A DNA stretch of 64,000 bases from Hyperoplus lanceolatus (taxonomy: Eukaryota > Chordata > Actinopteri > Uranoscopiformes > Ammodytidae). The notes under the pieces were generated by a model. It ran no database searches, was not told the origin of the DNA, and saw only the letters and a list, made by a program, of their open reading frames with translations. The position numbers and the translations under genes are program-made. The DNA is taken from positions 14,812,501-14,876,500 of the forward strand of contig CM049410.1 of the NCBI GenBank assembly GCA_026929865.2. The letters run 5' to 3'. Positions within the stretch are counted from its first letter, which is position 1, and each line of letters starts with the position of its first letter. This document shows positions 11-59,100 of the stretch, piece by piece.

Positions 11-1692
11 TCAAACTTTTTTCTTGAGAACAGTGATTCGATTCTTAATGTAGAATTTTATGGCAGACCAATTTCTGTCTTTGAGAGCTACTTTCTCCAG
101 CTTAAGGCACTTATCACAGTCACTCTTCCCTGGGACACGGCATGAAGTGATGAAGGACATCAGGTGCTTCTCAACAGCAAGGATCTCCTTTTTATCCCAC
201 ACCTTTCTCTTGATAGGTGGACGACCTGTATAGCAAGAGAATAGAAAAGTCAATAAAGACTAATTTTAAGAGTTTGACAGCAGAAGGGAACATATTTTGT
301 TGATTACTTAATAAAATACTTAAAAGACCCGTCAGGTCACAAATGACTCAGCTAGTATCAGCCTGTTTTAAGTGCTGTATGGATGAAGATACACTGGTAC
401 ATGTGCTATGGTCATGCCTTAAGATTAATTAATTTTGGATGTAGATTCAGTTACATTGTCAGTATCATAAAGAGGCAATTTGTGCTCTGTTCCAAGTACT
501 TGCTTCTAGCCCTGCATACAGTAGTGCAAGCAAGAACTGTAACTTATGCATCAAAGAGAAAATGTTCATTATATATAGGCCAGATCTATCTTCACTTAAC
601 AAACGCAACAAACTGGTGTCATCTTGCAGGTATAGATGAAAAGCATTGTTGTCCAGCACGTGATAGGCCAACCTGTACACGCCCCCACCCCCTATGTACA
701 TGCACTGTAAGCATATATTGAATGTCGGTCGAATGTTTCAATAAATCCCCCGAGGAGTGGTGTGAGCCATGAAACAGGTCTGTTGGGATAAAATAACCGA
801 GTGTATTTTTTATTTATACGTATAGATATCTAGATAGGTAGATAAAATAAATACGGAGCCGAAAGTTTGAAACAATCAACTTTACCTCTGTCCCTTTTTG
901 ATGACTGGCGGTGAGAGGCTTGTGGAGGTGTCATGGTGCCTTGCTGTGGTGCTGTATCCCTTTGGCTGACGTCTGGCATTGTCGTCTCTTCCATCTGACT
1001 GGATGTGACTTGACTCCTCTCCTCTGAAAACCAAGACAAAACAAGTGACAAAAACTAATATTAGTCGTCACATCACAGTAAATTTGGCCTCAGGGCCAAA
1101 CTGGGCATACTTTAAAGAGATTGATATTGGCTAAGTCCGATCCCTTCTTTAATGTATTCTATGGTGTTTGGCCACCTCAGCCTGCTTGTATTGCTGCTCT
1201 TTTACAACGAAGTTTCTACAATGGGAGAATTTCACTGCATAAAGTGGAAATCAATGTGTAACACTTGGATGCACCAGTTGGTGAGTTCTTGATAGAGGCT
1301 GTAGAAATTCACTGAACTTGATGGCAGTAATTAATTAGTAGAGCAGTGCACAAAAATCAGCTAGGCAGCATATCATGTTTAGCCATATCAAATAATTATA
1401 ATTTATGACTCACGTCAACTTAACATTTGTGACCCAGGATCCAATAATTCAATATTAGCTCAAAAAAGTTAAAAATAAGATCTGTCAGATATATATTAAA
1501 AAAACATTATTGTAAGTATAAGAATCAGATTCAGTATCGGTAGATACCCAAAATTAAAATGGATACTTGATCGTGACATCCCTACAGTAAATGGATAGCC
1601 TTCAATACATAAACATGATCACATTTCATAAGATACTACCTCTGAGCCTGAATCACACACCACCTCCGTGTCGCTGTCAAGGTGCACATTCT
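11..1692 (-). CDS. Three C-terminal exons, last one Myb/SANT-like
   Basis: Exons 1692-1640, 1021-886 and 225-11 are open and in matching phases. The last begins [20 protein letters not shown] and contains [13 protein letters not shown], then a second Trp ([10 protein letters not shown]) and a basic tail ending at TGA. The tryptophan spacing and helical look resemble Myb/SANT or MADF-type DNA-binding folds, which is an inference. The 3' UTR lies outside the window. Confidence 0.6.
226..885. other. Intron of the chimeric gene
   Basis: AT-rich intron sequence between the last two exons. I see no repeat with clear termini and no other gene. Open frames here are short and unremarkable. Confidence 0.5.
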
Positions 1693-1881
1693 CTGTGAGT
1701 TAGTGGGGATTGGAAGAGGGGGTAGAAGGAAGAAAATGACTGTTAGCGAGCTTCGAATGCAATCTTCTGATTCTGAGATGTTCCAATAATGCCCAAGAAA
1801 AACTCAAGACATAATATATAATGTAGATAAGCAAATTTTCCTTTATGCACAACAGTGTTGAGAAAGAAAAATAATTAGTAC

Positions 1882-4043
1882 CGTCAGGATCAATGTTGAT
1901 TTCATCCAGGGTCTTGCCTTTGAACTCTGCCATGCGTCCCTGTTCCAGAGCCATAAGAACTTTGCTTACTTTAGCAAGTTGGAGGGTGCCTTCTGGAAGT
2001 CTGTAGAACTGACGATGCACTCTTATATCATGACCAAGAAAATCAGCTAACTGATCCAGCTCTGTATTACTGAGGTTGAGAACTGAGACAGAGTTCTGTT
2101 TGTTTGCGCAGTTTGTAGAGGTGAGACTTCAGGACTTCTTTGGCACCACAGATCTTGGCATAGTATCGAAGGCAATCAGACCCACGGTAGCAGGTAAATG
2201 CACTTGGTCTTGCAAATAAATATGCATTATCATGAGGAACCCCACATTCCTGCCGTTTGCTGACAAGCAAATCCAATGATTGTTTCATTGCTGGGGTCAA
2301 AAGCACAGGAACCTTTCTTCCCCTTTTTCCTCTTATCTCTAGCCGCCTGAAGTGTTGACAGAGTTTCTTTTCCAAGTCTGTGAGGGCTACATTCACATCT
2401 TCCTGGGGGCCCGATGGAGTTTCAGACAAATATGCAGAGAGGGGCATTTTTGACACCTCCCCAGCTCTTCGACGGTTGAACAAAATGACTTGTGTCAATG
2501 TGATCTTAGTCAGCAGTGACCATGTCTGGGACGAAGCCTCTGTTGACAATTTACTGTGACTTTGTTGTTGTTGCGCATCTAAATAAGAATGCAAGGTCTG
2601 ACGTCTTTTGTGAATGGAAGCAACAGAGGGGCATTCCACTTAGATTCCTGAAGTGTTCTCAGTGATGCAGACGATACCATTTCATTCCATCTTGTTTCAT
2701 AGACTCTGCGGAATGTACGAGCATCTTTTGCTGCACTGTAGTCCTTCTGTACATTTGCACGGCTTTCAACAAGCATTGAAATCTTTGTCAAGCTATGTCC
2801 AAGTTTGAGAGCAAGACTTGGGGTCTTGTATTTATTGGTTTTACTGTCATGGCCTGCCACGTGTTTCACTGCTTGAACAACATGCATGAAATTCGCAGGT
2901 TTTGATGTGCTCTTCCATGGTCTTCAAAGGAGTAGTTTTCCTTGAGCATACCAGAAGCCTCCCCAGCTCTCTCAATTTCTGCCGAATGAATTCATGTTTG
3001 CCAACATCATATCCAAGCCTGTTATACAGATGCTCACCAAACTCTATGATGCACGTATCAGATTTGACTGCAGAATAAACTTCATCTTGAACCATGTTGT
3101 TTAACAGCTTCCATAACTCTACTCCAACACCAGGAGGTGGAGGAACAGCAAATGCACAAAGGGCCTGGACACGGGTTTTGCCAGGGTTTTTTTGTCGAAC
3201 ATCAGGCCTGAACTTGCAGATCTTCATGTGCCGCCAAAGGACCTTCTTTGTGAAAAAGCCTTGGCAATATACACAATGCAGGAAATTCTGTGCTTGAGAA
3301 TCCTGTTTTGGTTGCTTGCGAGGAACAAGATTTCCTAGACCAGTATTTAATACTTCAACATTGTGTGCAAAGTTGCCCCTATTTCTCAGATGTTCCAGGT
3401 GCATTCGTCTTCCTTTGGATCCTTTTGGGAACGACAGAGCCTGTGCAACCTCTGGCTTATTGAAATGAGCACGCTCCAAATGCCTCGCCATTTTTCCAAC
3501 TCCTAACTTACAGTACAAACAGTATTGCTTTTTGTTATACATTCTTGTCCCGTTATCCTTTTTACAGACGGCAGGTATGGAAAGTGAACCATCAGGCACT
3601 CCATCTTCTATATGGAGGGAAGATGCACTGTCAGGAAGATTCTGATCTAGATTTGGCGTTTCGTTTTCAAATAGGACTTCAGTGTCTCCCATTTCACTCT
3701 GTTTTGATGAGTGCCCACTAGTGGTTTGTGTTCTAGGACAGGATGAATGACTTAAACGTCGCCTTTTACATCTCACACCAGAGACTCTCTCTTTTCTTGA
3801 GCTTGAGCGTCCTCTGTTCAGCACCTGCTTTGAAGAATGACTGTTCAGTTTCGTTTTTGAGAGACATACATCTCTCATTTTTAGGCATTGGCCCAGGCTT
3901 GGTATCCGTTTAAATGGCTCAATAACTTCACTTGTGTCTGTATCATCAGAATGATCCGTACTAGTCTCAGGAATATATTCCTCTCCACTGTCACCTGAGG
4001 TGTCAAAGAGCTCATCCGAATCAAATTGAATCCGGTTGCCCAT
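1882..4043 (-). pseudogene. Large exon: two zinc fingers plus tyrosine recombinase-like domain
   Basis: The exon opens at ATG after an AG acceptor. It encodes an acidic start (DSDELFDTSGDSGEEYIP), then one finger at about residues 175-193 (CLYC...HLERAH) and a second at about 257-276 (CVYC...HMKIC). The second half carries the hallmarks of tyrosine recombinases: a first catalytic Arg in NRRRAGEV, a second Arg in LYKLRK, an LGH box in LADFLGHD, and a Tyr eight residues after that His in HRQFYRLP, the spacing seen in XerD-type enzymes. This suggests descent from a Crypton-like or other recombinase-bearing transposon. About three frame breaks split the exon, so the enzyme is presumably not made. 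The exon ends at a GT donor after an Asp-rich stretch. Confidence 0.72.
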
Positions 4044-4183
4044 CTTTAAGAAAGAAAATGTAAATTAAATGTATGTCAGCTTAAATAAAGTATCTATTGT
4101 TACTCCACTCAAGATAATAACAATCAGTAAAGAAATGTAAAGCCAATGTATTCATCTTTTCTCCCTCACTGTGTGTTGCTTAC

Positions 4184-4510
4184 TTGTATGCTTTTGGTCC
4201 TCCTCAGTCTTGGGATAGTGACTTGGTCCTCTTTGGAGAGGCAATGTTCAGAGTCTGAACTTGGACTTGATATCTAGGGTGTCCGAAAGAAATGTCTTGT
4301 TAAAGTTTTGACCAATGGACGAAGAACAAAATGATATAAAGAAAGACATGAAAACGTTCGAGTGTATAAACATCACAATACCAGAAAGCTGGAATTTAGG
4401 GACACAGGACTTGTGGATGTAGCCTGAGGTTCATCAGAATCGGTGTAATTTACAAGGGAAGTAATCCTGACTTTTTCAGTTGGAGAGTGAAGTTCTGGGT
4501 CTTCTGAGCC
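4184..4510 (-). CDS. Two further linker exons of the chimeric gene
   Basis: Exon 4510-4382 (43 codons, begins GSEDPELHSPTEKV) and exon 4273-4184 (30 codons, begins ISSPSSDSEHCLSKED) are both phase 0 with consensus splice sites. They encode low-complexity Ser/Asp/Glu-rich sequence with no recognisable fold. They connect the SET module to the finger/recombinase exon. Confidence 0.5.
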
Positions 4511-4865
4511 CTATAGGAAGAAAAAAAGATTTGATAACTTTCAATTTTTATTTTACTATAAATTATCAACTGGACAATCAATTAATTCACAAGTATAATA
4601 AAGTATTACTTTTGTTAAAAAAACATAATTATAGCTGGAAATGAAATAAAAATCATTTATACTTCATAAATTAGTGAAGTCACATGAAAACATCATAACT
4701 ATACTGTGCTTATAAGAAAATACTTTGACTCATACTTAAAGATTTCCTCCATCTGACACAAAGCAGTTTTACTTTTGATGTTTAAGTTGTTTCTGATTTC
4801 TAACATTAATAAGCTGCCTACGGTTCCCATTACAGTTAACAACAAGTAAAGCTGAGGTCTGACTA

Positions 4866-5272
4866 GATGAACTGACCTCAGACCAACAGCTGGTCTGTCT
4901 GGTAGAGAGTAAAACTGAGCTCAAATTCAAGGATGCATGTTATTGATGGTGTTTTGTTAAGTTTAAGGACAGAAAAATGAAGATAAGTCAACTTAAAATG
5001 ATAAAATATTACTGAGTAACCGTGGACCCCACAACTCATGAAGACCTGAAAAGTGTGTCTGACACTGGACAAGATGAACTGACCTCAGACCAACAGCTGG
5101 TCTGTCTGGTAGAGAGTAAAACTGAGCTCAAGTTCAAGGATGCATGTTATTGATGGTGTTTTGTTAAGTTTAAGGACAGAAAAATGAAACTAAGTCAACT
5201 TAAAATAGTAAAATATTACTCAGTGACCGTGGACCCCACAACTCATGAAGACCTGACACGTGTGTATCTGAC
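4866..5272. repeat. 209-bp minisatellite, block A (two units)
   Basis: Units begin GATGAACTGACCTCAGACC at 4866 and again at 5073 (period 207). Both run through the same ACAGCTGGTCTGTCTGG and GTGACCGTGGACCCCAC-type landmarks. The block lies in the intron between exons 5569-5474 and 4510-4382. Confidence 0.9.
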
Positions 5273-5473
5273 ACTGGTCTTCTTAAAGCACTCTGATTGG
5301 ACCACATCAAGTCATAAAAACCAGAATGCTCATTTATGTCCAATCATACTGACCCAAACAAAACCAAAATGTGTCTTCTAGTGAAAAGACCACAGCAATC
5401 AAAGAAGAAAAGCTTAGAACTAAAGTATAGTTGAATGATAGACATTTAAATACATTCTGACAGAAATTCGTAC

Positions 5474-5569
5474 CTGCATCTGGTCGCATGAAGGTCCCTG
5501 AAGAGCCTCATCTTTGGATCTGCAGGTGTCAGTCTCAGAAGACTCAGGGGCAAAGCAGACTCCTTTAAC
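5474..5569 (-). CDS. Duplicated 96-nt linker exon, copy 1
   Basis: A 32-codon phase-0 exon with an AG acceptor and a GTACG donor. It encodes an acidic, Ser/Cys-containing linker beginning VKGVCFAPESSETDTC. It is almost identical to 6640-6735 and lies exactly 1166 bp away, so it was duplicated with its introns. Because the exon is symmetric, using both copies would not change the frame. Confidence 0.6.
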
Positions 5570-5821
5570 CTGAACAATCAGTTGAGAATTATTATTGAGC
5601 AGTTAGTGAGCAGTGACACCATTTCAGTTGCACAACATCAACCATGGGTAGATACACAATATGGCCAACAATGACTGTGGTTGTATTACTTAAAGATTTC
5701 CTCCATCTGACACAAAGCAGTTTTACTTTTGAAATGTTGAAGTTGTTTCTGATTTCTAACATTAATAAGCTGCCTACTGTTCCCATTACAGTTAACAACA
5801 AGTAAAGCTGAGGTCTGACTA

Positions 5822-6448
5822 GATGAACTGACCTCAGACCAACAGCTGGTCTGTCTGGTAGAGAGTAAAACTGAGCTCAAGTTCAAGGATGCATGTTATT
5901 GATGGTGTTTTGTTAAGTTTAAGGACAGAAAAATGAAACTAAGTCAACTTAAAATGATAAAATATTACTGAGTAACCGTGGACCCCACAACTCATGAAGA
6001 CCTGACACGTGTGTGTCTGACACTGGACAAGATGAACTGACCTCAGACCAACAGCTGGTCTGTCTGGTAGAGAGTAAAACTGAGCTCAAGTTCAAGGATG
6101 CATGTTATTGATGGTGTTTTGTTAAGTTTAAGGACAGAAAAATGAAACTAAGTCAACTTAAAATGATAAAATATTACTGAGTAACCGTGGACCCCACAAC
6201 TCATGAAGACCTGACACGTGTGTGTCTGACACTGGACAAGATGAACTGACCTCAGACCAACAGCTGGTCTGTCTGGTAGAGAGTAAAACTGAGCTCAAAT
6301 TCAAGGATGCATGTTATTGATGGTGTTTTGTTAAGTTTAGGACAGAAAAATGAAGATAAGTCTACTTAAAATGATAAAATATTACTCAGTAACTGTGTAC
6401 CCCACAACTCATGAAGACCTGACACGTGTGTGTCTGACACTGGTCTTC
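5822..6448. repeat. 209-bp minisatellite, block B (three units)
   Basis: Units start at 5822, 6031 and 6240 (period 209) and are nearly identical to block A. The block sits in the intron between the two copies of the 96-nt exon. Its right edge joins unique sequence at CTGGTCTTCTTAAAGC, as in block A. Confidence 0.9.
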
Positions 6449-6639
6449 TTAAAGCACTCTGATTGGACCACACCAAGTCATAAAAACCAGAATGCTCATT
6501 TATGTCCAATCATACTGACCCAAACAAAACCAAAATGTGTCTTCTAGTGAAAAGACCGCAGCAATCAAAGAAGAAAAGCTTAGAACTAAAGTATAGTTGA
6601 ATGATAGACATTTAAATACATTCTGACAGAAATTCGTAC

Positions 6640-6735
6640 CTGCATCTGGTCGCATGAAGGTCCCTGAAGAGCCCCATCTTTGGATCTGCAGGTGTCAGTC
6701 TCAGAAGACTCAGGGGCAAAGCAGACTCCTTTAAC
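6640..6735 (-). CDS. Duplicated 96-nt linker exon, copy 2
   Basis: Same 32-codon phase-0 exon as 5474-5569, with one visible base difference (GGGGCTC against GAGGCTC on the coding strand). It sits upstream in transcription order, directly after the SET exons. It lies within a 1166-bp tandem duplication that also carries the 209-bp satellite units. Confidence 0.6.
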
Positions 6736-6975
6736 CTGAACAATCAGTTGAGAATTATTATTGAGCAGTTAGTGAGCAGTGACACCATTTCAGTTGCACA
6801 ACATCAACCATAGGTAGATACACAATATGGCCAACAATGACTGTGGTTGTATTACTTAAAGATTTCCTCCATCTGACACAAAGCAGTTTTACTTTTGATC
6901 TTTAAGTTGTTTCTGATTTCTAACATTAATAAGCTGCCTACTGTTCCCATTACAGTTAACAACAAGTAAAGCTGA

Positions 6976-7502
6976 GGAATGCTCATTTATGTCCAGTCAT
7001 ACTGACCCAAACAAAACCAAAATGTCCTTTCAATTGCAATTCTGCAGCAATCAAAGGAAACAAGGTTAAAGTTAAAGTTTGTCACATTAATAACAATAGA
7101 GGTTTTACAAAAGATCACCAAGATTGCTATTCCTCGTCCCTGAAAGTCAAGTCTAATATACACATCACCTTATTCGTCAGATATAACTCACTGGAAACAA
7201 GACAGAGTGACAAAAGCAAGAATATATAAATAGCTTGTCCTTTTTTATACACAATAATTTACACTAAGCACAGTGTAAACTGGAATTGCTTTAATTCAGT
7301 TAATCCAAAATAATGTATTGTACAGAGCAGACTTCAACATCCTGCTATCCTGAACTACACAAAACGAAAGATAATCAGAGGCAGAAACACCAGTATTGGT
7401 TCAAATCTAAGAAAAGAAATGGTGCATCATTCTGATCCACACATTTATTCTAATGTTCAACATCAATAGTCATCCAAATGAGAGACAATGATTTTGACAA
7501 AC
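6976..7502. other. Intron of the chimeric gene
   Basis: AT-rich sequence between the duplicated exon and the second half of the SET module. A second hit to the duplicated region (AATGCTCATTTATGTCCA) occurs near 6977. Otherwise nothing is recognisable. Confidence 0.4.
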
Positions 7503-9135
7503 CTGTTTCCTCCAAGGCCAGTCAGTGCCTCCATAGTTATAGGTGATCTCTTCTCCAGTATTAATGTCCCTCAGAGCAAAGAGACAGAGATGTGGCTTGT
7601 CCCTCTCCTACGACCTTCTTCATCCGGCAGTTTGGATGGATGTGGTCATCATTGACCAGCCTTCCAAGACTGTCATCTTCTTGTGCTGCATCGACACTTC
7701 AAACATAAAATAAATTACTTATAAAGGCTCCACAAATTCATATCATTGATTGTTGAACTATTTAGCGAAATAGATAACAGTATGCCGTTGTCTTTGGAGG
7801 ATTGTTTTACTCAGGAAAACAAATGATAACTGTGTCTAGAAGTCACTACTACAGTTTTGAGATTAAATTAATTGAACTGAATTGGTTACAATTAACTGAT
7901 ATTGATTTCAGTTAACCTTGTTGACTCGAATTGGATTAATTTCCTACGGATTAGTCAATGAGCTAAAAGAATGTTGGTGGTGCCCCCATTCAAAAATGTT
8001 GTATCAATCTCAAGTGATTAATAAATTAAATGTATAAATAGTGTATTTCCTACACACATGTTTGAGCCATTAAAATATTAAATTGTTCCTGTAAAATGTA
8101 ATCTAAGCCTTACCACCATGTTCTTTCTCGCCAAGAGAAGTCAAACATGAAGACTGCACACCTCCCATGATATATTCTCCTTCTCCTCTTTGACTCTTCA
8201 GAATTTATCAGTTCCCCTCTATATTCCACCACAAAGTCGCCTTTTTGGAAATTGGCCTTGGCAAACACCCCTCGACCTAGTGCACATATACAGAAAACAA
8301 TACACCACTGAAAGCTTTACAGTTATATTTTTTAATATCCCTAGAAGTAGCATAAGTAGGTGTTATTTCTTCAATTGCGCAGTGATGCTCATCTCTGATG
8401 CATAAAATTTGAAAAAAATCACCAAGCTCTCTATCAATGCAAGTAGGGGACCCACTCCATTTTGTTCCCTGATAATGCTACACTGTATTTCTACATTCAC
8501 ATTTATTTAGTCAGTTTTTTACAGTTTGCAGATAACTTTACAGATAAGTTTTGTTTTAAACCTATTATTTTAATAAGGAAAACAATGATAATAATTTACT
8601 TTCTAGACTCTAACATGTGAAAGATAATTTCAGTATACCACTAGATAATAATAACAACGTAAAGAAACAACCTTTGGTTTTGGGACGTTTTTTTCAGAAC
8701 AGTGGTAAAATAAATAAGTGTGGAGCCCTGCATTTTTCTGGGCCACACACTATTGCAGGTACATTTTTTAAATGTCCCTCCCTGCCTCAGCTCAGCCTAT
8801 TATAGAGATCCATTATAGATTTGGGACTTTATAGCTTTGATTTTCAGATATACATTTGTAACAACATTACATTACATTTGTCTTGAACATTAAACCTGCC
8901 ACAGACTAACACTACAATTTCTGAAAAAGCACAAATTTAAATTGGTACCCACTCAAATGACCACCTGTGTGCCCTCACAAAATGCACTGTTGTATGCTAT
9001 GCAACTAAACCCAAACAACTTACCTTTAAAAGAACTGATGTATTTCATTTCCAACTCTGCTGTCTTGTCCAGACCCCTGGCAGCGAGATCTCTTGCATCC
9101 TGTAAAGGAGGCGTCCTGCGTCTCCTTGCAGCCAT
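7503..9135 (-). pseudogene. SET methyltransferase module of the chimeric gene (three exons)
   Basis: Exon 9135-9024 starts at ATG with a short basic leader (MAARRRRTPP) and ends in phase 1. It continues into 8276-8114, which reads GRGVFAKANFQKGDFVVEYRG, the G-x-G and E-Y-x-G start of SET domains. It then continues into 7696-7503, which reads LGRLVNDDHIHPNC and ends LRDINTGEEITYNYG, matching the SET motifs around the cofactor pocket and the catalytic Tyr (x-x-Y-x-Y-G). The canonical N-H-S triplet is replaced by N-D-D-H, which I believe is normal for this fish family. SET domains transfer methyl groups from S-adenosylmethionine to lysine; no target can be inferred here. One frame break lies inside 7696-7503. 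Splice signals at all boundaries look good. Confidence 0.82.
8277..9023. other. Intron within the SET module
   Basis: AT-rich intron between the first and second SET exons. I see no element with matching termini. Confidence 0.4.
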
Positions 9136-13649: not shown

Positions 13650-14393
13650 GTTCTGACGTGTGTTTGTCAGCATCTGCAGAGAAAAGTCAACGAACCCTCT
13701 TCAATCAAAACTCACGTGCCGTTCCCGTCAGATAACCTCATTCAAACAGAGACTTTAACTCCAGGGTTGCCATGCAGCAGACGCAAAAACAGATTTAGAA
13801 AATGACCCCGAATTCGGAAAATTGTGTAGGCTACTCCTGTCTGATTCCACCATTGCATTTAAGATAACAACAAAGTGAAGCTCTCTGCGTAAACTTCACC
13901 TGAGCAAATGTCTTTGGTCAAAAGACAAAAAATAAATAAAATTGATTTAGCTCAAAACCCACTGGGTGCTACACAAATTATTTCACATTTATATATTCCG
14001 CATATCCCTTTTATGTCACGTTGATATAAATACAGCATGCAGACGACACACTTTGGTAGCTTCGTTCTAAAACTTTGAAATCGCCTTGCAACATTTGGTA
14101 GGCCTATTGCCGTATTGGTATACAGACAGAGGAATCATCCAGCTGGCAATGATTAACAGCTCATGGGCGCATTAGTGTGTTGAGGGCCCTGCTCATTTTG
14201 AACAGAAGCTAAATGTTTAATCTCTATCAATTTAACCTCAGAATTCTGGTTGAGTGCTGGTAATTGTTACAATGGTTTATTAGACACACACAACATAACT
14301 CCACATTCCCGTAATTTAATACTCCATGTCTGGCTTATATCTTTGAGGGCTTATAAAGCAGGCTATGGGTTATTCTTTCTATTGGTAGCACTT
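13650..14393. other. Intergenic stretch
   Basis: AT-rich with no recognisable gene. Short open frames here look random. Confidence 0.4.
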
Positions 14394-14869
14394 TACAATA
14401 AGGTACACAAAATTGTAGTACCTACTACATAGATATGTGTTACCAACTACATAGGTTTTTTTTGGTGTGTTACCTACTACATACGTTTTTTTGTGCTACC
14501 TAACACACAGGTTTTTTTTTGTTACCTACTACAGTTTTTTTTTGTGTGCTACCTAACACATAGGTAGCACAAAAAAAACCTAACACATTGTTTTTTTTTT
14601 TGGTGTGTCACCTACTGCATAAGTTTCTTTTGGACTACCAAACACATAGTTTTTTTGTGCTTAACAGTTTTTTTTGTTGTGTTACCTACTAGGTTTTTTT
14701 TGTGTGCTACCTAACATAAGATTCACCATCCTGACTTATCTTAGGCTGCAAACCACCAAAAAAAAAAAAAAACCAAAGATTTTGGGGGGGCCCAAACAGG
14801 GGGGGGAAAGGGAAAAAAAAAAAAGAAAGAAAGGGAAGGGGGAAAAAAAAAAAAAAAAAAAAAAAAATA

Positions 14870-14908
<39 letters not shown>

Positions 14909-14948
14909 GGAGGAGGGGGGGGGAAAAAAAAAGAGGGGGGGGGGAGGG

Positions 14949-14989
<41 letters not shown>

Positions 14990-15320
14990 GTTGTTGGTGT
15001 TTTTTTCCCCCCCCCTCCCGGGGGGCCCCGATTCGCCCCCCCCCCCCCCCAAAAAAAATTCCCAAAAGGAAAGATGAGGCGCCCGCAGAAAAAGACAAGG
15101 CAAAAAAAAACCCCCCCCACCCCCCGGCGGCCGACGCCCCAACACCCACCAAAAAAAATGGTGCCCCCCCCCCCCCCAACACTACGAGGGGGATTATGGC
15201 CGGGGGTTGGTTGAGAATGAACCTATGTGTTAGGTAGCACAAAAAAACTCTATGTAGTAGGTAACACATATCTATGTAGTAGGTACTACAATTTTGTGTA
15301 CCTTATTGTAAAGTGTTACC
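14394..15320. mobile_element. Inverted-repeat (foldback) element with low-complexity core
   Basis: The left terminus GGTAGCACTTTACAATAAGG and right terminus CCTTATTGTAAAGTGTTACC are inverted. The arms carry repeated TACCTACTACATAG and CTACCTAACACATAGG motifs. The centre, about 14755-15185, is long runs of A, G and C with almost no ordinary sequence. No clean target duplication was found. Confidence 0.75.
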
Positions 15321-16069
15321 CATCTATTTAGTATCAATACAAGGTTTCCTACTCCAACAACCAAATACATACTGTGTGTTCCCCTGTAGCCCAGCAGGTT
15401 GTGCTCATATGAACCTCTAGTCTGTCAATCCGCGTACTAATACCCAGCCGTCTGAACTGAATAACTACACGCACAAGGTTAAGTTAACAGCATAACTGGA
15501 AAAGCATTAGGCGACGGTATTTTGACAGCAAGTGTCTCCAGGGAACAGCTGGGGCCATGCTTAACTATCATATTCTCCAAACTGCTGGTCAGATTGACAG
15601 CAACAGGCACTAACATTGAAGCTGAAATCCTCACTGCCCGTTCAACCTTTAAAAAAAGATGATGCAACATTTTGTGTTGAGTTTGTAAAGTTGTTTTAAT
15701 TACTCTTCCTGCGCTGATGTTTCCCCATCTTCCGCATGCGGTTTCCTCGCACAACATTTGTCTGTTTATGCTTCATATTTGTCAAGGGTTTTAGCTATAC
15801 TCAAATGTAAAATCTGCCCTGCCTTATCCATAAACTCTGTCCAGGCCCAAACACATTTGATATTTGGTTTACGTGCTCTAAAAAGATCCAATGCCAACCG
15901 AAATAATTCAGCAGTTGAAGTAGACACATATACGATAAAAAAAAAAAAAAAATTAAAGAAAAAAATCTTTGTCTTAATACAACCATTATTCTGAAAAATA
16001 ATAGGGTATTAAAATGAGTAAAAAGAGTAAAGCACAAAACCAAATACCTGAGTTTTACTAAAAAAGCAC
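15321..16069. other. Intergenic stretch downstream of xpo6
   Basis: No gene is recognised. A segment near 15380-15420 (TAGCCCAGCAGGTTGTGC) looks slightly like a tRNA-type A box, but no SINE could be delimited. A poly-A tract lies near 15940. Confidence 0.3.
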
Positions 16070-22500: not shown

Positions 22501-25500
22501 CATTGAAGCAGAGTAAAATCTAATGTTAAGACATTTTTAACCAATTATAAAAGTTTTAACTGAAACTCGACCTTCACATTCTAATACTATTTTCTAATAT
22601 GAAGACACCTTGTTGAGGGTTTGTAGTTAAGTTTCAACAATTGTTTCATTCTTTAACTAATAATGGAGCATGCCGGATTGAGTATCATTGTTGTGCGTAC
22701 CTACAGTTTAACATAACAACTATGTTTGACCTGATGACCAATTTTAATTTACACCTTGCAGCCAACCAAGAACAAGGGGTAAATCGGTATTGCTTTAATG
22801 TTTTGGTAAGTGTTACGCGCTCCCACCTCTCTGTTCCTCCCTCCTCTTGCTCCGCCACACTTTCTCTCTCCCAGGTGTCCTGAGGCCTGATTGGCGGCAG
22901 GTGCTCCTAATTATGTGGGGCTTAATGGCGTGGCCTGCGCCAGTCACTCTCTCTCTCTGCCTGCCTGACTGGAGGACGGTGTGTTGCTGACCTGCTGCTT
23001 GTGGTTTATTTAGTTTATGGTTGGTTTACTTATGGGGGGCTGCTAGGTTGTATTATTTTACTTTGCTCGTAGTTTAGAGGGGCCGGGGTTATAGTTTAGT
23101 TGGAGGAAGGCCTGGGCAAAACTGTGGTCCAACTGTGCCTCCCCAGGTCTTCCTCCCGTTTACCTCTTTTCTTTTGCAACCTCCTTACTGAGTTGTTGTT
23201 TTGGGATTGATTTAATAAAGCACATTATTACTTTGATTCTTGGTTCTGTCTGGGTTACTTTTAATGTTTACTGGCCGGCTGAACGAGCCTGGGATGGCCG
23301 GCCGTAACAGTAAGATACAGTGCAGAAATAATCGATTGCAGCAGTAACTTTGCACTAGGTGGAATTCTAAAATGTAAATACCCCTGCCTTAAAAACCTGA
23401 CAAAATGTCACGGTGACCCTTCGATGATCTCTTACCAGTGTAGTGAATGCATGAGATGGGAGCAGCTCCATCACCTTGGCAACCACCTCCAGACTCTGAC
23501 GCAGGTACCTCTGCCACTCCGTCTGTTGCTATAGATACCAAAAGGAGGAGAACATTCAGACATTGACGTTAAAGTTAAGGGGGTTAATATTTCAATAATA
23601 AAACATAATACATTTTCATTACAGATTTCTTGAGGTTCAAAGAGATACACAGAAATTACAGAGACAAAAAACAAGGTGCAGCAGACCGTGAAATATTGAT
23701 CTTACATCATCATCCAGAGTCTCATCATCCAGCTCTTCTAACTGGGCCTGATTGTATCGGAACTGTATGCGATTCAGCACTTCCCTTAACAGAAGAACTA
23801 AGGCATCTTTGTACCTGTGCAATCAAATAATATATTGAGCAAATTTTAAACAAACACATGAATTATTACACACATCAGGAATCCACTTGATGACCTATAT
23901 TTTATAAGATTGAATTGATTTTAGATCACTGATCATTTGAGTTCACCGTTTAAAAAGGATAGCTATTTTTTTATGAATGACTTACCTATTTAGATAACTG
24001 TCCCTGTCAGCGAGTCTGCTTTTGATCTTTGTTGTTAGAAAATCCAAAAAGACACTCCATATATCCAAACAAGCAAAGTAGCCTTCATGGGTAGGCTGAA
24101 AGAACCCAATAAAGAAGTTTCATACTCTGTGACTCATATTTTGCATAAATAAATGACTGTTGGACAAAATCATCATTACCTGGTTGAAGGTGTACTTGAA
24201 AAGCAGGGCAAGAAACTCTACAATTGGAAACTGAGGACTGGACTCAATCCGCCTCAAGTGAACACTGACAAACAGGCGCAGGAAATCTGTGAACTTTTCC
24301 AAGTAACTTGGAGGGTGAAAGAGAAAAACATTAGAAACAAACATTAAAGTCAACACAAAGATCTTATGGTCAAAAGTAATTTAATATTATTTATATAGTG
24401 CATGTGGATTGATACTATTTCTAAAACCAATCTTGACAAAGGACAATGAAACCCTGGCTTATGTGTTGGTATGATGACACATAAGGCAAAACTGAGCCAC
24501 AATGCTGTATGGAGCCAGTGTGGAGAGCAGCAGCGGTGAAAACAAAGACTGTGTTTTGAGAGATGGACTACTAAGAAGAACCACAGTGCAACTTCTGATG
24601 GCAGATAAGGTTGAAGAAGTATCACATTTAGATGTGTGACCAGTAGCAGACCATGTGCTAAAGATGTTCATGGGAGAATACAATCTAAGTCTGCAAACAC
24701 TTCAGTTATGCACAAATGACAGTGAGCCATACTTCTCATCAAGATCCTGTAGGCGGCTCTTGACTGTATGAGCGTTATTCTCTCGCGTCAGCCTCTGCAG
24801 CAGAAAGAAGGTCTGCTGGAACATGCGCAGCAGATACTCCTCAAAATCCATTGGCACACAGTTCTTTGACACCAGCTCGTTGACACAGGTCATGGCCAGT
24901 ACACCGAGCCGGGCCCGGTCCACTTTGTTGCACTCGCTCTGCTGTCCATTTCGTCCTCCTCCTCCGTTGGTTGTCGGTGGCATTGTCCCGGGGTTAAGCT
25001 GCCCGTTAGAAGAGTTGGAAGAGATGAAGGATCCCTGGGTCTTGGCCTTTGTCCGAATGTCGCAGCCGAAACGTGCAAAATGGAAAATGGATGCCAGCAG
25101 ATTGGGCGTGATGCTTGTGGACAGAGGGATCCAGCTGAGCAGGTGAGCCAAACACTCCAACACCAGACAACAGAGCTGCTGACTTTCATTGTCCAACGCC
25201 GCCATGGGCTGGCAAAGCAGCTTTGAGTACTGGCTGCCCTGAAACAAACTGCCCAGCAATTCCACTGATAGATAGGAGAAACAAAATGAGGGTCTGGTTA
25301 ACACAACAACAACAACAACAACTAACCACTTGATGAAATGCCACCAAAATTATTATTAGGAAGTCTGTGCAGTTTCATGTAAAATTCACTCACCACTTTC
25401 CCCTGAGGTGGGTGAAGGTGGTGGGGTGGAAGTTATGACACTGTGCTTGTCCCAATACGTCTCCAGAATACCTGCAAAACAAGAAGTGGCAAGGATCCAA

Positions 25501-27609: not shown

Positions 27610-29958
27610 AATTGGTAGCACACATCAACCAGCAACCGGTTACTAATTATTAAAACTTACACTAAAGATTTTTAACAGCACAAATGGCAACAGCGGGGCT
27701 TACCTGAAGGGTGTTTGTAAAGAAATCGTGGTAAAACATTGGCCAGTCCTGGCGACCGATGTCCACTACAACTTTGCAGAGTTTGTTACGGATGAAATAG
27801 GGCACTGTTTTGTGCTGAGCAAGTAGTAGTTTGGGCAGACAGCTGCGAATCTCCATCTTGTCTTGTGAAGCAACACCGATCCACATCTTGTTCACCAAGT
27901 TCTGAAAGTAAAAGAGGACAATAACTTGTCAAAGGCAACCAATAAATACATCCTAACTTCTCTGAATAGTCAGTGTAATCAGTCGTTCTTTTGAATGACA
28001 AATCATTTATTTAATTATTATTTATCTACTTTAAATATAGTTCCTACATACCCTCCATTACAGACCTGAACCCCATAAATGCAACATTTCAATTTAAGCA
28101 TACATATTTTAGATATGCATCAATGAAGATGAAAACATGTCATTAGCAGTCACAGTATGTTCAACCCGTTATGAATGCAAGATTTGTTACACATTTAGCT
28201 AACGTGTTTAGCAGAATTAAAGAAATGGGAAACAGGAACAGCTTAAAATAAGTTATCTTCTTAGTACCTTTATCAAACCATATTTTTGTGTACTGTTTTT
28301 CCTCAAAGCATAGAAAAGGCAAAGAAGGTCCTAGATAGTACAATGAGCTAAACATGTGTATCCCTCGCCTACAGGACTTACTTCAAATACTGTAAGGCTG
28401 TACATCATAACATACTCATTCCGAGTATTGGAGAGGAAGAACAGGCAGTGGCGCCACGCTCCAGTCTGCTGTGCAAAGTTATTCAGAAGCTCTTCTGCAG
28501 AAAAAAAGGAAGTAGGTATGGTCTCTGACAGACTTAGATGACAATGTAGTACTTAATTTGAACACAAACTGAAAGTAGTGCATCTCAACACAGGAAGTGT
28601 ATAAAAAGCAATGCAAAATATGTTTTTAAATAGAAAACAAATTGTCAGATCACATTGAGACTATTATCGACATAGAAACACAAACCTCAAACTAATTGCA
28701 GACAATGCTCGTCTTGATTTAAATGTGTAGTTGTGGGTCTTACAGGCCAAACCTTACCTATCTCTCTCTTTCGCTCATTGGTCGTGCAGTTGTGAAAAAA
28801 CTCTGTCATAAGGCTCTCCAGTGCCCGCAGTGACTCCTCCTCTGATGCCTAGTGGAGATTAAAAGGTAAAGTATAAAATTAATACCATCTTTTTTTGACA
28901 ATATGCTTAATCCAAACAACCGGATACTCTATCTATGTCATTATCCTCTAAGCATTAGCAGACAAAAATCTCATTCGGGCCAGTATCAGTCCAGTTATGC
29001 AGTAAACATATACAGCAGTTGCTAAACTGCAGATAAGTCTCTCAAAAGAACACATGTTCACTAACAAGAAATCCAATTTTCACACGGAAGGGAACAATTC
29101 ATTGCCATTCAAGTTTCTTGTTTATATATCTTAAACATTTTCATTTACACAAAGTTCATATCTTTTAATTAGTTAACAAATTATGTATTTTTGATTATGC
29201 AGAGTGCTTCAACATGTAGCCATCTATGTTATGAGGCTAAAAGTGATTGCTTGCAGGCATATATACCGTCTTGCTCAGGTGAGTCACATACTGAGTTGGA
29301 CACTTATCTTCATATGCCCACGCCTGCAGTTAGCTATAGTTTGCGATTGCACATGTATTTATGACCTTTGTTTACGTTTTGGCAAGGTGTCATTTGTCAT
29401 ACAATCTACACGACAGCAATCATTGGGCATCTATGATCGCTTGTGGAATCCAGCCTTGTGTCTTACAATCCGAGTTGCAATTAAAACAAATCAGTTGGGT
29501 TATATCAATTGTAATGCCACGCTTTGACAGGTGAAAGAAGTAGGGCCCTGCCTAGCACAAACAAGATAGCAAATAGGGATTTTAAAGAGCAGCTCCTGTG
29601 GCAGGCGGGTCTAAATTCCTCAAATAAGCCACAACTTGCCGAGGCTCAACACAACTCAAGTATTTGGTTTTGCAAGATGGGCGTCTATAACGTGAAATGG
29701 CTTAACGAGCTGTCACATCCCGTGAAATACCTGTCTCCCGTAAACCGTTATGACATTACAGCCATAGAGGACCGTAGTGCACACAGTCATACAAGTATTC
29801 CTTCAAGTGAGACATTTTCATGCATAAATAATATAATTTCACGTCTTCCTGGGCAGTACGAATCAAAAGCTTATGCACCACGTTAGCCACTAGCAAACAA
29901 GACAGGAAGACACCGTGAATAACCGAGTAAATATTATACGTTAAATTAAACTTACCAT
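16583..29958 (-). CDS. xpo6: Exportin-6, complete coding gene of 24 exons
   Basis: Exons: 29958-29956 (ATG only), 28848-28758, 28494-28382, 27901-27704, 27072-26913, 25471-25394, 25264-24733, 24306-24180, 24095-23986, 23814-23706, 23528-23436, 21837-21768, 21627-21468, 21294-21202, 20691-20547, 19981-19832, 19565-19376, 19269-19114, 18999-18885, 18728-18557, 18038-17877, 17736-17638, 17072-16842 and 16684-16583 (TAG). They total 3459 nt, 1152 aa, against 1125 in human XPO6. The N-terminus ASEEESLRALESLMTEFFHN, the block LDDETLDDD and the C-terminus PTGTIKL match the orthologue throughout. XPO6 is a RanGTP-dependent importin-beta-family exportin that removes profilin-actin from the nucleus. 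The first exons correspond to the importin-beta N-terminal domain and the rest to HEAT-like helices. Exon 25264-24733 carries a Ser/Asn/Gly-rich loop about 25-30 residues longer than in human. Introns hold a solo LTR and a hAT element. Confidence 0.98.
18172..18413. mobile_element. MITE family A, copy 2
   Basis: AAGGTGGAGTAAGTGATTTT at the left mirrors TATCGCTGACTCTATCTTT at the right. The interior GCGCACACAAAGAACAGACAG is related to the copies at 12463 and 58294. It sits in an xpo6 intron. Confidence 0.65.
22811..23309. mobile_element. Solo LTR of a retrovirus-like element
   Basis: A 499-bp unit begins TGTTACG, ends CGTAACA and is flanked by a perfect 5-bp duplication GTAAG (22806-22810 and 23310-23314). 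It contains an AATAAA signal near 23214. These are the features of a long terminal repeat left by recombination; there is no internal coding region. The family (Gypsy-type or ERV) cannot be decided. It lies in the xpo6 intron between exons 23528-23436 and 21837-21768. The perfect duplication suggests moderate youth. Confidence 0.85.
25805..26791. mobile_element. Non-autonomous hAT DNA transposon in xpo6 intron
   Basis: Ends CAGGGCTGTAC and GTACAGCCCTG are perfectly inverted. An 8-bp duplication CTTCAACC flanks it (25797-25804 and 26792-26799). No transposase frame remains. It lies between xpo6 exons 27072-26913 and 25471-25394. Confidence 0.93.
27501..27605. repeat. AT microsatellite with palindromic flanks
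   Basis: Two (AT)n tracts are separated by TTTTTATTGGATTATT. The first is flanked by AAAAAGAAAGAAT and its mirror ATTCTTTCTTTTT, so it can fold into a hairpin. Confidence 0.85.
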
Positions 29959-51437: not shown

Positions 51438-53659
51438 AGCCTCGTTCGACATGTCGCCGTCTTGCTAAGACCTGCGCAATTATGACGCTCGGCTTGCTGA
51501 GCGCACAGCATTTTTCCAGCATTTTTGTTGTGCGCTCAGCAAGACGCGCGTCAAGACAAGTCGAACGAGGCTACTGTCTTTGCGTCGGAGCCTACACTCA
51601 AAGCCCCGTCTGAGAACACAGCGTTTCACGCCCGGTGAAACACACACACACCTGCCGCCCCAAAGGCTTTTTTTCCATGGGAAATTATGAATTTTACCTA
51701 GCAATGGCAAGACCACAGGTCTGTTTTTATAATATTGTTAGCAAGAAATATGCATTAGGCTATGATCGCCCGATCAAGTCATAGTCAATGGATCGCTGAT
51801 AACATGATTCACCATAGAAACAGAAGAAACTAATGCTTGATCCTAAAACACTCCTGTTAATAAAACAAAGAATGATATATGCCTATACAACTAGGTTTAT
51901 TAATCTGAATGTAGAGCATGTTCACGATGTGTAAGGTGGCCGCCTATATGAACGACAAGAGGGCTGAGAACTACTGATCAGATAAATGATCGATCAAACG
52001 TAAAATCATCAGGAAATGATAAAAACATCCCGATGGAGATTTCTATGGAGTGATTTTGCTTTAAACTGTACAGGGGCGCGTTGTGACAGACAGTGTCTCT
52101 TTCTGCAGCGTAAAGTGAAAACAAACTCAGAGTAGGTCTAACATCTATCCAGCAGGTTATAGTCACGGCGTATGTTGCGGCTTTGGCGAGGTGTGTCCTG
52201 TTGCTATGGACGCTATTAAAGCAAAACGTGACGTTTAAAAAATAAAAAATACAATCAGGAAAAAATCATATTCACATGAAAAAACTAACAATTTTCCGAC
52301 CTTTTAGGCCTATTATAGGCTATGTCCAACCACGCATTTTATTTAGAGGTTGATTATAGCCTATTTAGGCTTATTATGTGCTGCTTTCTGAGTTCCCTAC
52401 TTTCTTATTGCAAGCATTGATCACAATCTGAAGATAAATGTATCAGTTTTCGATCCTTTTATAAAGGTTACTTTTACGCTGGAAATACAGAAGTAGGCTC
52501 AGTGGCACAACTGACGGAGCGCTGCAACCAATCAGGAGAATTCCGCCCACAGATGGAAAAGCCAATGAGGCTCGTTTATTTGTTTTACTGTCAGAATTGA
52601 ATATAGGAAATAAAACCTCTCCGTTCTTCCGTTTCCTTTCTGTCACTTTGGACTCAGCTCTTAATACAAAGTAACAAAACCCTCCGTTCACCCAGTTCCT
52701 TGCTCTGTCATATTCGTTTTTCGTTTTGTACCAATAAACAAGAAAGGAAAATTCGGATGGAATTTTCGTTTCTGCATTCCAGCTGGAAAACGGTAAAACC
52801 AAATTACGAGTGGTATATATTCCTTTCTGTCACTTTGGACTCAGCCCTTAATACAAAATAACACTTTATACACGGACCGCGAATGAACGAGAGATGGCAG
52901 TTAGTTAGTATGGATCACGATGAGGTAATGTGTTTATGTTGTAAATAATGACTATTTCAGATGAATAATGGTCATCTGATGATGCTGGTGAGGCAAAGTA
53001 AACTTTGTTTTAGTAGGCTACCGCTCATTCATTTAGGAGTAAACACTGCAGTCTAGGTTCGCTGCGTGAAATTGTGTATACGTTGCTTGGCAACGCCCGC
53101 CCGCCTTTTAGCTTTTCTTCATTGCATTTTCTTTTTTTTCTTTGATGGTTCAGCCCCGTTATCAGTCATTATGAACAAACAACTGTCTCAAACAAGGCTC
53201 CCGCTCCCCTTCCCTCACCTGGAGCCATAGGCTTCTCAAATCGCGATCCTGCGCCGCACTGAAATCTGCGACCAATACAGATATGTGACCATAGAGCATG
53301 CACGCGTGAACCGAAAATCGGACTGGGTGTACGACCAGATCAAATTCAGTAATAAAAACTATATAAAAAAGTCTTTCTTTGCACAGATGGTCTCGTTTGC
53401 TGTTAAAGGTAATTTATGATTATGAGAGGAAACATGAGGCTGTTTAAAAGATATTTAAATGTTACTCGTTGCTGCTTTAAATTAAATACGACTTAATATT
53501 TTGTTGCAAATCCCTCCCTTGCAATAACTGCATCAAGCTTGTGACACATTGACATCACAACACTTTTGCATTCTTCTTTTGTGATGCTTTTCCAGGCTTT
53601 CACTGCAGTCTCTTTCAGTTGTTGTTTGTTTACTCTCTTCGGTCTCCTCTTTAGCGTTT

Positions 53660-53877
53660 AACTCTGGAGATAGACTTGGCCAGTCTGAAACCTTCCATTT
53701 CTTGCCCCTGATTAACTCCTTTTTTTGTTTTTACAGTGTGTTTTGGGTCATTATCTTGCTGCACGATCAAGGATCTTCCAATCAGTTTGGTTGCATCTTT
53801 CTTTAAATTGTCAGACAAAATGTTTCTGTAAACTTCTGAGTTCATTAAGCTGTTGCCATCGTGTGTTACATCATCAA
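53660..53877 (-). pseudogene. Tc1 transposase C-terminal fragment
   Basis: Reads NSEVYRNILSDNLKKDATKL and QQDNDPKHTVK, the conserved Tc1 region near the last catalytic acidic residue. A related piece, inverted, lies on the plus strand at about 54283-54420 (NSEVYRNILSANLKK). The transposase is otherwise missing. Confidence 0.8.
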
Positions 53878-54103
53878 TAGTCTGGCTTGACCACTCCCGC
53901 CAGCGTCTATTAAGCGCTGGCGTCGGCAAACAACGCTACGCCTCCATTGGCTGCTTCCCGGGGTTAGCCCTGCCGTAGATGATTGTGATTGGTTTAAATA
54001 AATAAAAACAGGCCAGCCCAGTTTCCCCCCGAATAGACGGCTCTAAACGGAGTGCTTCCAGACCATACTACTTGCTGTAGTTTGGTCTGGCTTTGCGAGA
54101 CTA
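53878..54103. mobile_element. MITE family D, copy 2
   Basis: 226 bp with the same ends as 43074-43300 and only a handful of differences. CATCATCAA flanks both sides. It interrupts the Tc1 transposase fragment, so it arrived after Tc1. Confidence 0.92.
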
Positions 54104-56165: not shown

Positions 56166-59100
56166 TTAGTCCTTATACACAGTTTGCTGACCAGGCCCTC
56201 TTTCATCGTGCATTATATGCCTCCTTACGTGGATCCTTCTCACTCGCCTGTCGCCTCCCACAGCGCCCTCTTCCTCCGACTGGCCCAATGAAGACCCCGA
56301 GCCCTTTGAATCGAAAAGGTGCAAGCCTCCTGGACCAGTTGTTCTGCCGTTCTCATAAATCAGGATATTGAGGGTTTCTTCAAAAATTCGAGCCTCTGGA
56401 AACTCTACCTAAAAACACAAGATGTTCCGAGATTGGTGAGTGGCTCAAGGGTTTATTTGCTGGGGACAATAGAGTTGAAAAACAATTCTATACAGAATTT
56501 TTGTTTTACTGCAAAAAACACTTTGTCTTTCTGGTGGAGTGTGAGATGAAAAAAATTATACTATTCTTATATTCATCTGTTATAAAGGGTACACCTAGAA
56601 GCCGGTTAGCTTAGCTTAGTTTAGATGAGCATAAATATCGGAAACAGATTAGTCATCTTTAGAGGTGCCGGTGGGTGTATTTTGTTAACTTTGAAAAGAG
56701 CCAGGCTACCGGTTTCATCTGTTTTCTATTTCTGTGCTAAGCTAGGCTAAATGACTAGTGTCAAACTCACTATCAGAAAGCAAATAGCCATATTTCTTGT
56801 AGTATTGCTTTAAGGACTTAAGTGTACACATTATGTCGTGCTTACTTTGGTCTGCTTCTTCTCTGTGGCATAGACAATGGAAGTGCAGCATACTTCAGCA
56901 ATCTTGCGGCCTTCGCCATAGAAAGACCAACAGCAGATCTCATCACCGAGCACGTCTTTGCAAAACAGGACGCGGCCATTAAACCGCAGCACGAGTTTGT
57001 CAAAGAGTTCAATGTTCTTCAGCAAGTTATCGTCTGAGTTGCTGGTGACGGGGAGAGACAAAGATAACGTTTTTAACGACAGAGAAGATGAATAAGCGTG
57101 TGTGAGGCTAAAAAGGGAAAGTTTTTGTGGCAGCAATTAACGTGCAGCCATTTTAAATTCTTACCTGGTGTAGGAGTATTTGTTGTTTCCTCTGTTGTTT
57201 TGTAATTTTACAACCGGCTGTAGAGACAAGAAAGAGAAATTAATCCTGATAGACGGCAGACTACACTTTCCATAGCTCACAATTCTCTACAAACAATTTA
57301 TTATTATCATTATTGAACCCTTTGTGGCACGCATGTATACAATTAAACTGCTGCTAACCTAGTACACACTTTTTGTCAGTGGTCCATTTGATTGAGATAC
57401 AATGCAACTCACCTTTCTACAACTAGCAATCATCTTCTGTTCTTCTTTGGCTGAGGTAATCATGGGGATGCGACACACAGTTTCAAAGACATCTTTTTGT
57501 TTCTGAAGGGAAAGAAAGAAAGTACAATAACATATATCTGCAACTAACAGGTTTCTGTATGTATCAATTAATCATCAATCTGACCGATCTTGAGACTAAA
57601 GTGATGTCAATACGTTTCTCGTTTAGCCCAACCAACAGCTAAAGTATTTAACTACTGTACGTCGATCCGTTTACCAATGAAACAACTTACTGTTTAGCCA
57701 GAAGGAGTTTGAATGGTTATATGATTTCACACAAATAAGGATATTTCATGACTGCACCTGCTCTTGTATATAGAAATGCAACTTTAAGGGTATATTTGGC
57801 CGTTAAGTACAAATGAACTCATTGTGCTACTATATGAAAAAGCAGGTGAGCTGGGTGGTGATGTTCACACAGAAGGGATGGGGGAAATTATAATACATTT
57901 AAAATGGCTTATTAGGCATTTTAAATGTTGTACATATGCACATAAACAATAGCTACACAAATTGAAAAATAGAAGAACATCCATTTACCTCTAGAGCACT
58001 TTGGCAGTGCTGAACGAGTCCCTGGACCCGATAGTACTGGGCCTCCTTCAAAACCTCATCCAGTTCTTTGTGGTCGTCTGGTAGTGGTACTGAGCCATCT
58101 CGCAGGAAGTTCAAAACCACACCAAAATGGCGGCCACACCTTTCCAACACTACCCAACCTGAGGCAGCAGGAAAAATATTTTTGAGTGACTTGTACCGTT
58201 CAGTAATCACCGTTACTTTTTGTCAAACGTTTCTTAATGTGACATTTGAAAAGGCAGTAGGGTCATTTAAGAATACTCTCAGGACACAAACTTAAAGATG
58301 GAGTCAGTGATTCTGGTGAACACTTCTTATCAAAATCAGTGAATATCTTCTCATGATCAGCTACTTGTCCGTACTTTGTGTGCACTGAAAAAAAAATCCA
58401 GTGTTAGTACACACAGCCTAGCCTCTGTAACTGACTTGATGCTAGCTACGGTGGACCCCCTTGGTTTTTATACCCTATTACATACCGATTTAAAGAGCAT
58501 TGGATGTGTTTTAACCAACTTAGGTATTCAGCGCACACACTCTAAGGACAGGTAGCAAAATGTGCGGTTATATAGCGATTTTGACAAAAAAGCATTTTTC
58601 AGAATCGCGGACTCCACCTTTGACCTTTGAACCTTCTGAGAGAGCGGATCCATAACAATCTGTTTTCTATTAATCTTCCAATGATGTGGATAACTGTGAA
58701 ACACTAAGGGCACACTCTCACACTAGGCCATCTGTTTCGTTAACCTCAAAGTGACATTTCTAGAATTCCTGATACAAATGGCAAACAGCCCAGAGGGGTA
58801 TACTACGAAACCAACTCAACAGAGCCCGGCTCTCTTTTTTTGATCTGGTTCAACATAACACATACCCTCGCTCAGAGCTAACCGGTATCACGAAGGAAGT
58901 TATCAACCTCTTATGTTGAACGAGGGTTTCGGCTTCAGGCTCTGTGCGCGTCCTCATGAAAGGGGGCGTTCGACCCGTCATTTGACTCTGCATCCGCACA
59001 AAATGGACTGATCTTGTGCCGCTAACTTTACACAAACGGACTGATTGTGAGCAGCTGAGTAAAACAAAAGTGTGTCGCCAACTTGATTCAGGAGGAACAG

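Follow-up and report, generated by a model that had tools for sequence, protein, structure and literature searches.

The SET-recombinase gene found in the 64-kb window of Hyperoplus lanceolatus DNA (the whole stretch that was analysed) is best explained as a decayed member of a Crypton-like family of DNA transposon genes in fishes, multicopy and multi-exon, in which a tyrosine recombinase acquired a KMT5A-like SET domain; the probability of this reading is put at about 0.75. The gene is spliced and lies on the minus strand, running from 9135 to 11, and encodes in order a SET domain, a linker, finger 1, finger 2, a recombinase and a C-terminal domain (Table 1).

The exon series was traced by tblastn with two relatives, P0001 and P0002, the matches of which (from 9135 and 9129, respectively, and both to 14) were collinear with the window. 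Exon borders were placed by eye from these matches, giving 11 exon pieces. AG precedes all ten pieces that need an acceptor, GT follows all ten that need a donor, and the joined pieces contain no in-frame stop. Exon 1 is 59% identical to residues 1-39 of P0001 and the last exon 81% identical to residues 1040-1111 of P0002 (both by tblastn). Four frame changes were located in the tblastn alignments, one near 7600 in the SET domain and three in the large exon (near 2895, at 2600-2630 and at 2100-2128); these are either mutations or assembly errors. An earlier note on this DNA had described a consecutive minus-strand exon series, broken about four times, with a SET domain, two zinc fingers and a tyrosine recombinase, and the strand, coordinates, content and number of breaks all agree with that description. 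The closest relative of the joined query scored 1732 bits (70% identity, 86% of the query covered), and this homology excludes a chance likeness. The 3' side of the element is cut off by the start of the window, and tblastn with P0001 and P0002 found no further copy elsewhere in the 64 kb.

Table 1. Parts of the SET-recombinase gene in the window, with the basis of each assignment.
Feature	Position	Strand	Basis or remark
Exon 1: ATG and N-terminus before SET	9024..9135	-	ATG at 9135, donor gtaagt
Exon 2: SET first half (GRGVF, EYRG)	8114..8276	-	PF00856, AG/GT borders
Exon 3: SET second half (ND motif, GEEITYNYG, PWR)	7503..7696	-	frame change near 7600
Linker exon copy 1	6640..6735	-	96 bp, 32 codons, phase 0 at both ends
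Linker exon copy 2	5474..5569	-	tblastn and splice borders
Linker exon 4	4382..4510	-	splice borders; weak tblastn match, P0002 190-261, E 6e-4
Linker exon 5, motif PRLRRTKSI	4184..4273	-	5' border by eye, frame-keeping, follows AG
Large exon: acidic stretch, two fingers, recombinase	1882..4043	-	three frame changes
Exon 7	1640..1692	-	AG/GT borders; no tblastn match of its own
Exon 8	886..1021	-	tblastn and AG/GT borders
Last exon: three-helix DNA-binding-like domain and stop codon	11..225	-	tblastn, P0121 model
Zinc finger 1, C2H2 (C-x2-C, H-x4-H)	3465..3521	-	by eye
Zinc finger 2, C2HC (C-x2-C, H-x3-C)	3216..3275	-	by eye
Recombinase core-binding domain, helical	2597..3071	-	approximate, borders carried over from P0121 model
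Recombinase catalytic domain (FNRRR, RGKRGRK, LRK, LGH..Y)	1883..2594	-	motifs, tblastn, fold search
Tandem duplication around linker exons	4733..6977	.	207/209 bp units within a ~1166 bp unit

Relatives were sought with the joined query, for which 651 of 7995 scored candidates were homologues (E<=1e-3), and with a frog protein, which gave 839 among 7988 scored; 120 were listed from each search. The 179 distinct homologues inspected come from these two lists and are a minority of all found; they are computed gene predictions that include many isoforms of single loci, and the counts that follow are thus non-independent. SET and the recombinase catalytic domain occur together in 133 of the 179 and all six parts in 113; in 45 the catalytic part is present and SET absent, and in one the reverse holds. 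Proteins with both come from at least 31 genera among the matches listed, 29 of them with a complete model (names counted by hand), and range from teleosts (Anguilla and Brienomyrus to percomorphs) to Polypterus and the frog Ranitomeya. The intact fish relatives that the earlier note had expected are therefore present as predicted proteins, and the two halves are not confined to separate genes.

Ranitomeya was the only frog genus among the matches listed, and on a quick recombinase tree the cyprinid copies (P0002, P0003 and P0008) nest among percomorph copies on weakly supported branches; horizontal transfer is a possible reading of both patterns in the sequences. Scans of viral contigs (two) and of prokaryote contigs, in collections that may omit the window's own genome, gave no confirmed relative.

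Each of the eight ligand columns of the two fingers, which were read by eye, is kept in at least 90% of 42 relatives. In the recombinase of the window FNRRR, RGKRGRK, LRK and LGH are all readable, and a Tyr lies nine residues past the LGH His. With active-site columns assigned by motif alignment, the 66 relatives keep the box I Arg in 65 rows, the Lys in 65, the box II Arg in 61, the LGH His in 62 and the Tyr in 66; by the same motif alignment alone, the His of HxxR is a Thr in 63. Searches with sequence only were insufficient to identify the domain: no PDB recombinase was matched by a profile built from 17 SET-less relatives (its two matches were both to one unrelated protein family), Pfam Phage_integrase was matched in two of 42 members (best E 0.083), and a PHROGs search returned no recombinase match. 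A fold search was therefore needed. With the predicted structure of the relative P0121, recombinases (Xer, Cre) and topoisomerase IB filled ranks 1-15 at modest scores, none of the PDB matches reaching E 0.001 (best 3.8e-3). The matched part starts near residue 248 of the model, in which residues 591-610, holding the LGH-Tyr stretch, have a pLDDT below 50. The structure of P0121 thus supports the fold, and the Arg boxes, LGH and Tyr are found in the window itself. The C-terminal exon corresponds to a three-helix domain in the P0121 model, and homeodomains appear among the structural matches at ranks 47 and 50; of the Myb/SANT-like end that had been proposed, the three-helix domain stands and the Myb/SANT assignment becomes a possible one.

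The first half of the SET domain matched Pfam PF00856 on ORF 8316-8110 alone (E 9e-7), and GRGVF, EYRG and ITYNYG were all found. Against PDB sequences, the best 14 matches of the joined SET piece were KMT5A/SETD8 (E 3.2e-25 to 1.1e-23), followed by MLL (E 7.8e-17), and a fold search with the P0002 model (mean pLDDT 63) placed SETD8 at ranks 1-25, with 37-40% identity. KMT5A (SETD8, SET8) is therefore the nearest solved SET domain by both sequence and fold, and its active-site Tyr positions are mostly retained: the columns aligned to Tyr245, Tyr334 and Tyr336 hold Tyr in 38/44, 40/49 and 39/46 of the rows with letters (PDB titles name Tyr245 and Tyr334; the numbering was counted by hand on the KMT5A alignment). 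The fish family differs from KMT5A in its fusion to a recombinase and in the NHS motif, the His of which is Asp in 37/45 rows. These Tyr and Asp counts probably understate those among true SET domains, because some rows are SET-less and were aligned by chance. A conserved change of the NHS His to Asp would be considered unusual for a SET domain.

This Asp favours a reading in which the transposon is the same and its SET domain acts as a module for nucleosome binding or for folding, or methylates the protein that the element encodes, and is not a working histone methyltransferase. Such a role is compatible with the transposon reading and not exclusive of it. Against it stand the three retained Tyr positions and the conservation of SET, which is as high (mean identity of relatives 66.5%) as that of the catalytic domain (66.8%). 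A non-enzymatic or self-directed SET domain is accordingly considered a real possibility, at somewhat worse than even odds, and is given about as much weight as an active role in writing chromatin marks.

The copies of the gene were then compared within species. Five of seven loci in Alosa sapidissima are 98-100% identical across five parts (SET, finger 1, core, catalytic and C-terminal). Over the four parts that it has, a sixth locus, with no C-terminal/MYB match and 115 catalytic residues, is 97-100% identical to the five, and the seventh shows 53-70% identity. The first six sit on six different contigs. Nine Misgurnus loci (36 pairs for each part) are 97.5-100% identical in SET (mean 99.1%) and 98.7-100% in the catalytic domain (mean 99.3%), the lowest identity among them being 96.6%, in finger 1. 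A mobile family with SET as part of its cargo would be expected to show near-identical loci of this kind. The earlier note had left open whether the gene was transposon-encoded or captured; the near-identical copies at several loci per genome support the former, and a single captured host gene fits less well.

An old domesticated SET-recombinase gene, immobile and spread by segmental duplication and gene conversion, would instead make these loci a host gene family. Its multi-exon structure and the host-like character of SET (the KMT5A matches) would suit such an origin, and the domestication of Crypton recombinases in vertebrates is a precedent (PMC3212892, available portion). The near-identical copies on six Alosa contigs and at nine Misgurnus loci argue against it, as does the retention of the active-site residues, the tetrad being mostly lost from domesticated DUF3504 proteins according to the same portion of that paper. 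A host gene family is therefore judged unlikely.

The joining of SET to the recombinase could also be an artefact of prediction, in which gene finders fused a recombinase element to a separate KMT5A-like gene family upstream of it or around it. In favour of this are the predicted nature of the relatives and the 45 inspected models that are SET-less. However, the six parts follow in identical order in 113 of 113 complete models, the exon borders of the window keep frame save at the four breaks, and the two halves co-diverge. Distances in SET and in the catalytic domain correlated at r=0.675 (31 complete proteins of 35 chosen), a value as high in none of 999 permutations, and none of 999 reached the observed correlation for any of the ten part pairs; the test leaves the shared ancestry of the hosts in, and gene models favour intact domains. 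Among the relatives, mean identity is 62.9% in finger 1, 60.5% in the C-terminal part and 51.9% in the core-binding part. From the co-divergence, and from the like mean identities of SET and the catalytic domain, it appears that SET moves together with the recombinase and is conserved equally strictly. An artefact is thus very improbable, and the transposon gene with its own SET domain is retained as the preferred explanation.

The distribution of SET within the family was followed on the quick recombinase tree, which has 72 rows (71 proteins hand-picked from the 179, and the window), 30 of them SET-less. The SET label changes 21 times on this tree, at least 14 of the changes being forced by starred branches, whereas shuffled labels gave a mean of 23.3 changes and were as low as observed in 101 of 500 shuffles. 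With 21 changes lying near the shuffled mean, a single gain of SET is without support on this tree. SET-bearing rows are present in every main branch, and three SET-less models (P0129, P0162 and P0167) retain the linker that follows SET elsewhere and look truncated by eye. Because of these two observations, the scattered label is read, from the sequences, as probably that of an old SET domain with repeated loss, to which truncated gene models add; independent gains in several branches may also have occurred. One SET-less group comprises P0128, P0165, P0170 and P0178, of which the last three have another N-terminus. Different N-termini are seen in SET-less P0126, P0165, P0170 and P0178, one of them with MYM/TRASH fingers, which hints at an exchange of N-terminal modules among SET-less relatives of the recombinase.

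The linker is built of repeated exons. The tandem array around it repeats the 96-bp phase-0 linker exon, P0001 and P0004 contain about eight in-frame copies of a 32-residue unit that matches this exon, and the linker span varies from 351 to 490 among the nine Misgurnus loci. Mean linker identity among relatives is 24.7%.

Several other features were observed in the window. Exportin-1-like exons lie on the minus strand at 24705-25349 and 27665-27928 (PF08389, E 9e-4, which is below the curated cut-off, and E 1.1e-5), and because of them a host gene probably lies beyond the element. BTB_2 exons (PF02214) on the minus strand at 57956-60506 are taken to be those of a KCTD-like host gene. An inverted repeat at 14381-15323, with 84-nt arms that are 94% complementary and flank a low-complexity stretch, is perhaps a small transposon. 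An ORF fragment without a Pfam match on the minus strand (53654-53935) carries a QQDNDPKHT motif, which resembles Tc1/mariner transposases.

The proposed element would work through a single protein, in which a flexible linker of repeated exons ties an N-terminal SET domain to two fingers, the recombinase core and, at the C-terminus, a helix-turn-helix-like domain. The element ends would be held by the fingers together with this last domain. The chemistry of tyrosine recombinases is established for the class, and if the conserved active site works in the same way, the conserved Tyr would cut and rejoin the ends through a 3'-phosphotyrosine. Excision would yield a circle, to be rejoined at another site. 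At the element or at the target site, the SET domain might bind or methylate the nucleosome (an H4K20-like substrate) or some other chromatin protein, and in so doing would make these sites usable or keep the element expressed. It is tentatively proposed that the family is an old, still active vertebrate transposon lineage, the recombinase of which brings its own histone methyltransferase for use at donor or target chromatin; one protein would then govern both transposition and the state of the chromatin nearby.

The SET fusion seems to belong to the mobile family proper and to have persisted across ray-finned fishes. If it works, the idea that transposons mark chromatin in order to select their sites or to avoid being silenced becomes directly testable. 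Some fish SET genes that are uncharacterised or named 'SETD8-A', a name carried by one of the matches listed (Oryzias), may also be explained as transposon genes.

The family resembles the Cryptons (A, F, I, S and V) in having a tyrosine recombinase fold and no reverse transcriptase among the 25 of 35 Pfam families listed for 42 relatives, and in being repeated in animal genomes. In the Crypton tetrad R-H-R-Y, Arg, Arg and Tyr are shared (in 65, 61 and 66 of the 66 rows, respectively), whereas Thr takes the place of the HxxR His (63/66), and for this reason the family is called Crypton-like and not a Crypton. It also differs in its SET domain, fingers and many introns, a separation drawn from descriptions of Cryptons. 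Animal Cryptons have neither a C-terminal domain nor terminal repeats according to the available portion of Kojima and Jurka (PMC3212892), and the three-helix C-terminus of the fish family breaks the former rule. From papers likewise available in part, some CryptonV families insert into microsatellites (PMC8869645) and in zebrafish Cryptons account for 0.9% of the genome (PMC9341512). KCTD1, KIAA1958, ZMYM2-4 and QRICH1 are vertebrate proteins with Crypton-derived recombinase domains (DUF3504), which have lost most catalytic residues (PMC3212892, same portion), whereas the fish family keeps them.

DIRS, Ngaro and VIPER elements share the tyrosine recombinase, and a methyltransferase of unknown function is present in some DIRS (PMC6681497, available portion), but these elements also carry reverse transcriptase and RNase H. 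Neither was found among the 25 of 35 Pfam families listed for 42 relatives, nor was a reverse transcriptase found among the Pfam families of nine window pieces, and the introns are kept; a retrotransposon origin was therefore rejected, and a DIRS- or Ngaro-type element with an extra domain is hardly credible.

In the literature searched (titles and abstract openings, with few subscription papers) no SET-recombinase element was described, which is weak evidence, and the joining is likewise absent from the available portions of PMC5753468, PMC9004415, PMC7599744 and PMC9406493. SETMAR (Metnase, primates) likewise unites a SET methyltransferase with a transposon enzyme; it is a sequence-specific histone methylase that arose by insertion of a mariner element downstream of a SET gene, and its DNA-binding domain targets transposon ends (PMC6326780, available portion). 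No DDE transposase family is among the 25 of 35 Pfam families listed for 42 relatives of the window gene. To our knowledge, SETMAR is otherwise the only known fusion of a SET domain with a transposon enzyme. SETMAR is one domesticated gene with the Hsmar1 mariner transposase, whereas the fish family is multicopy and joins a KMT5A-like SET domain to a tyrosine recombinase.
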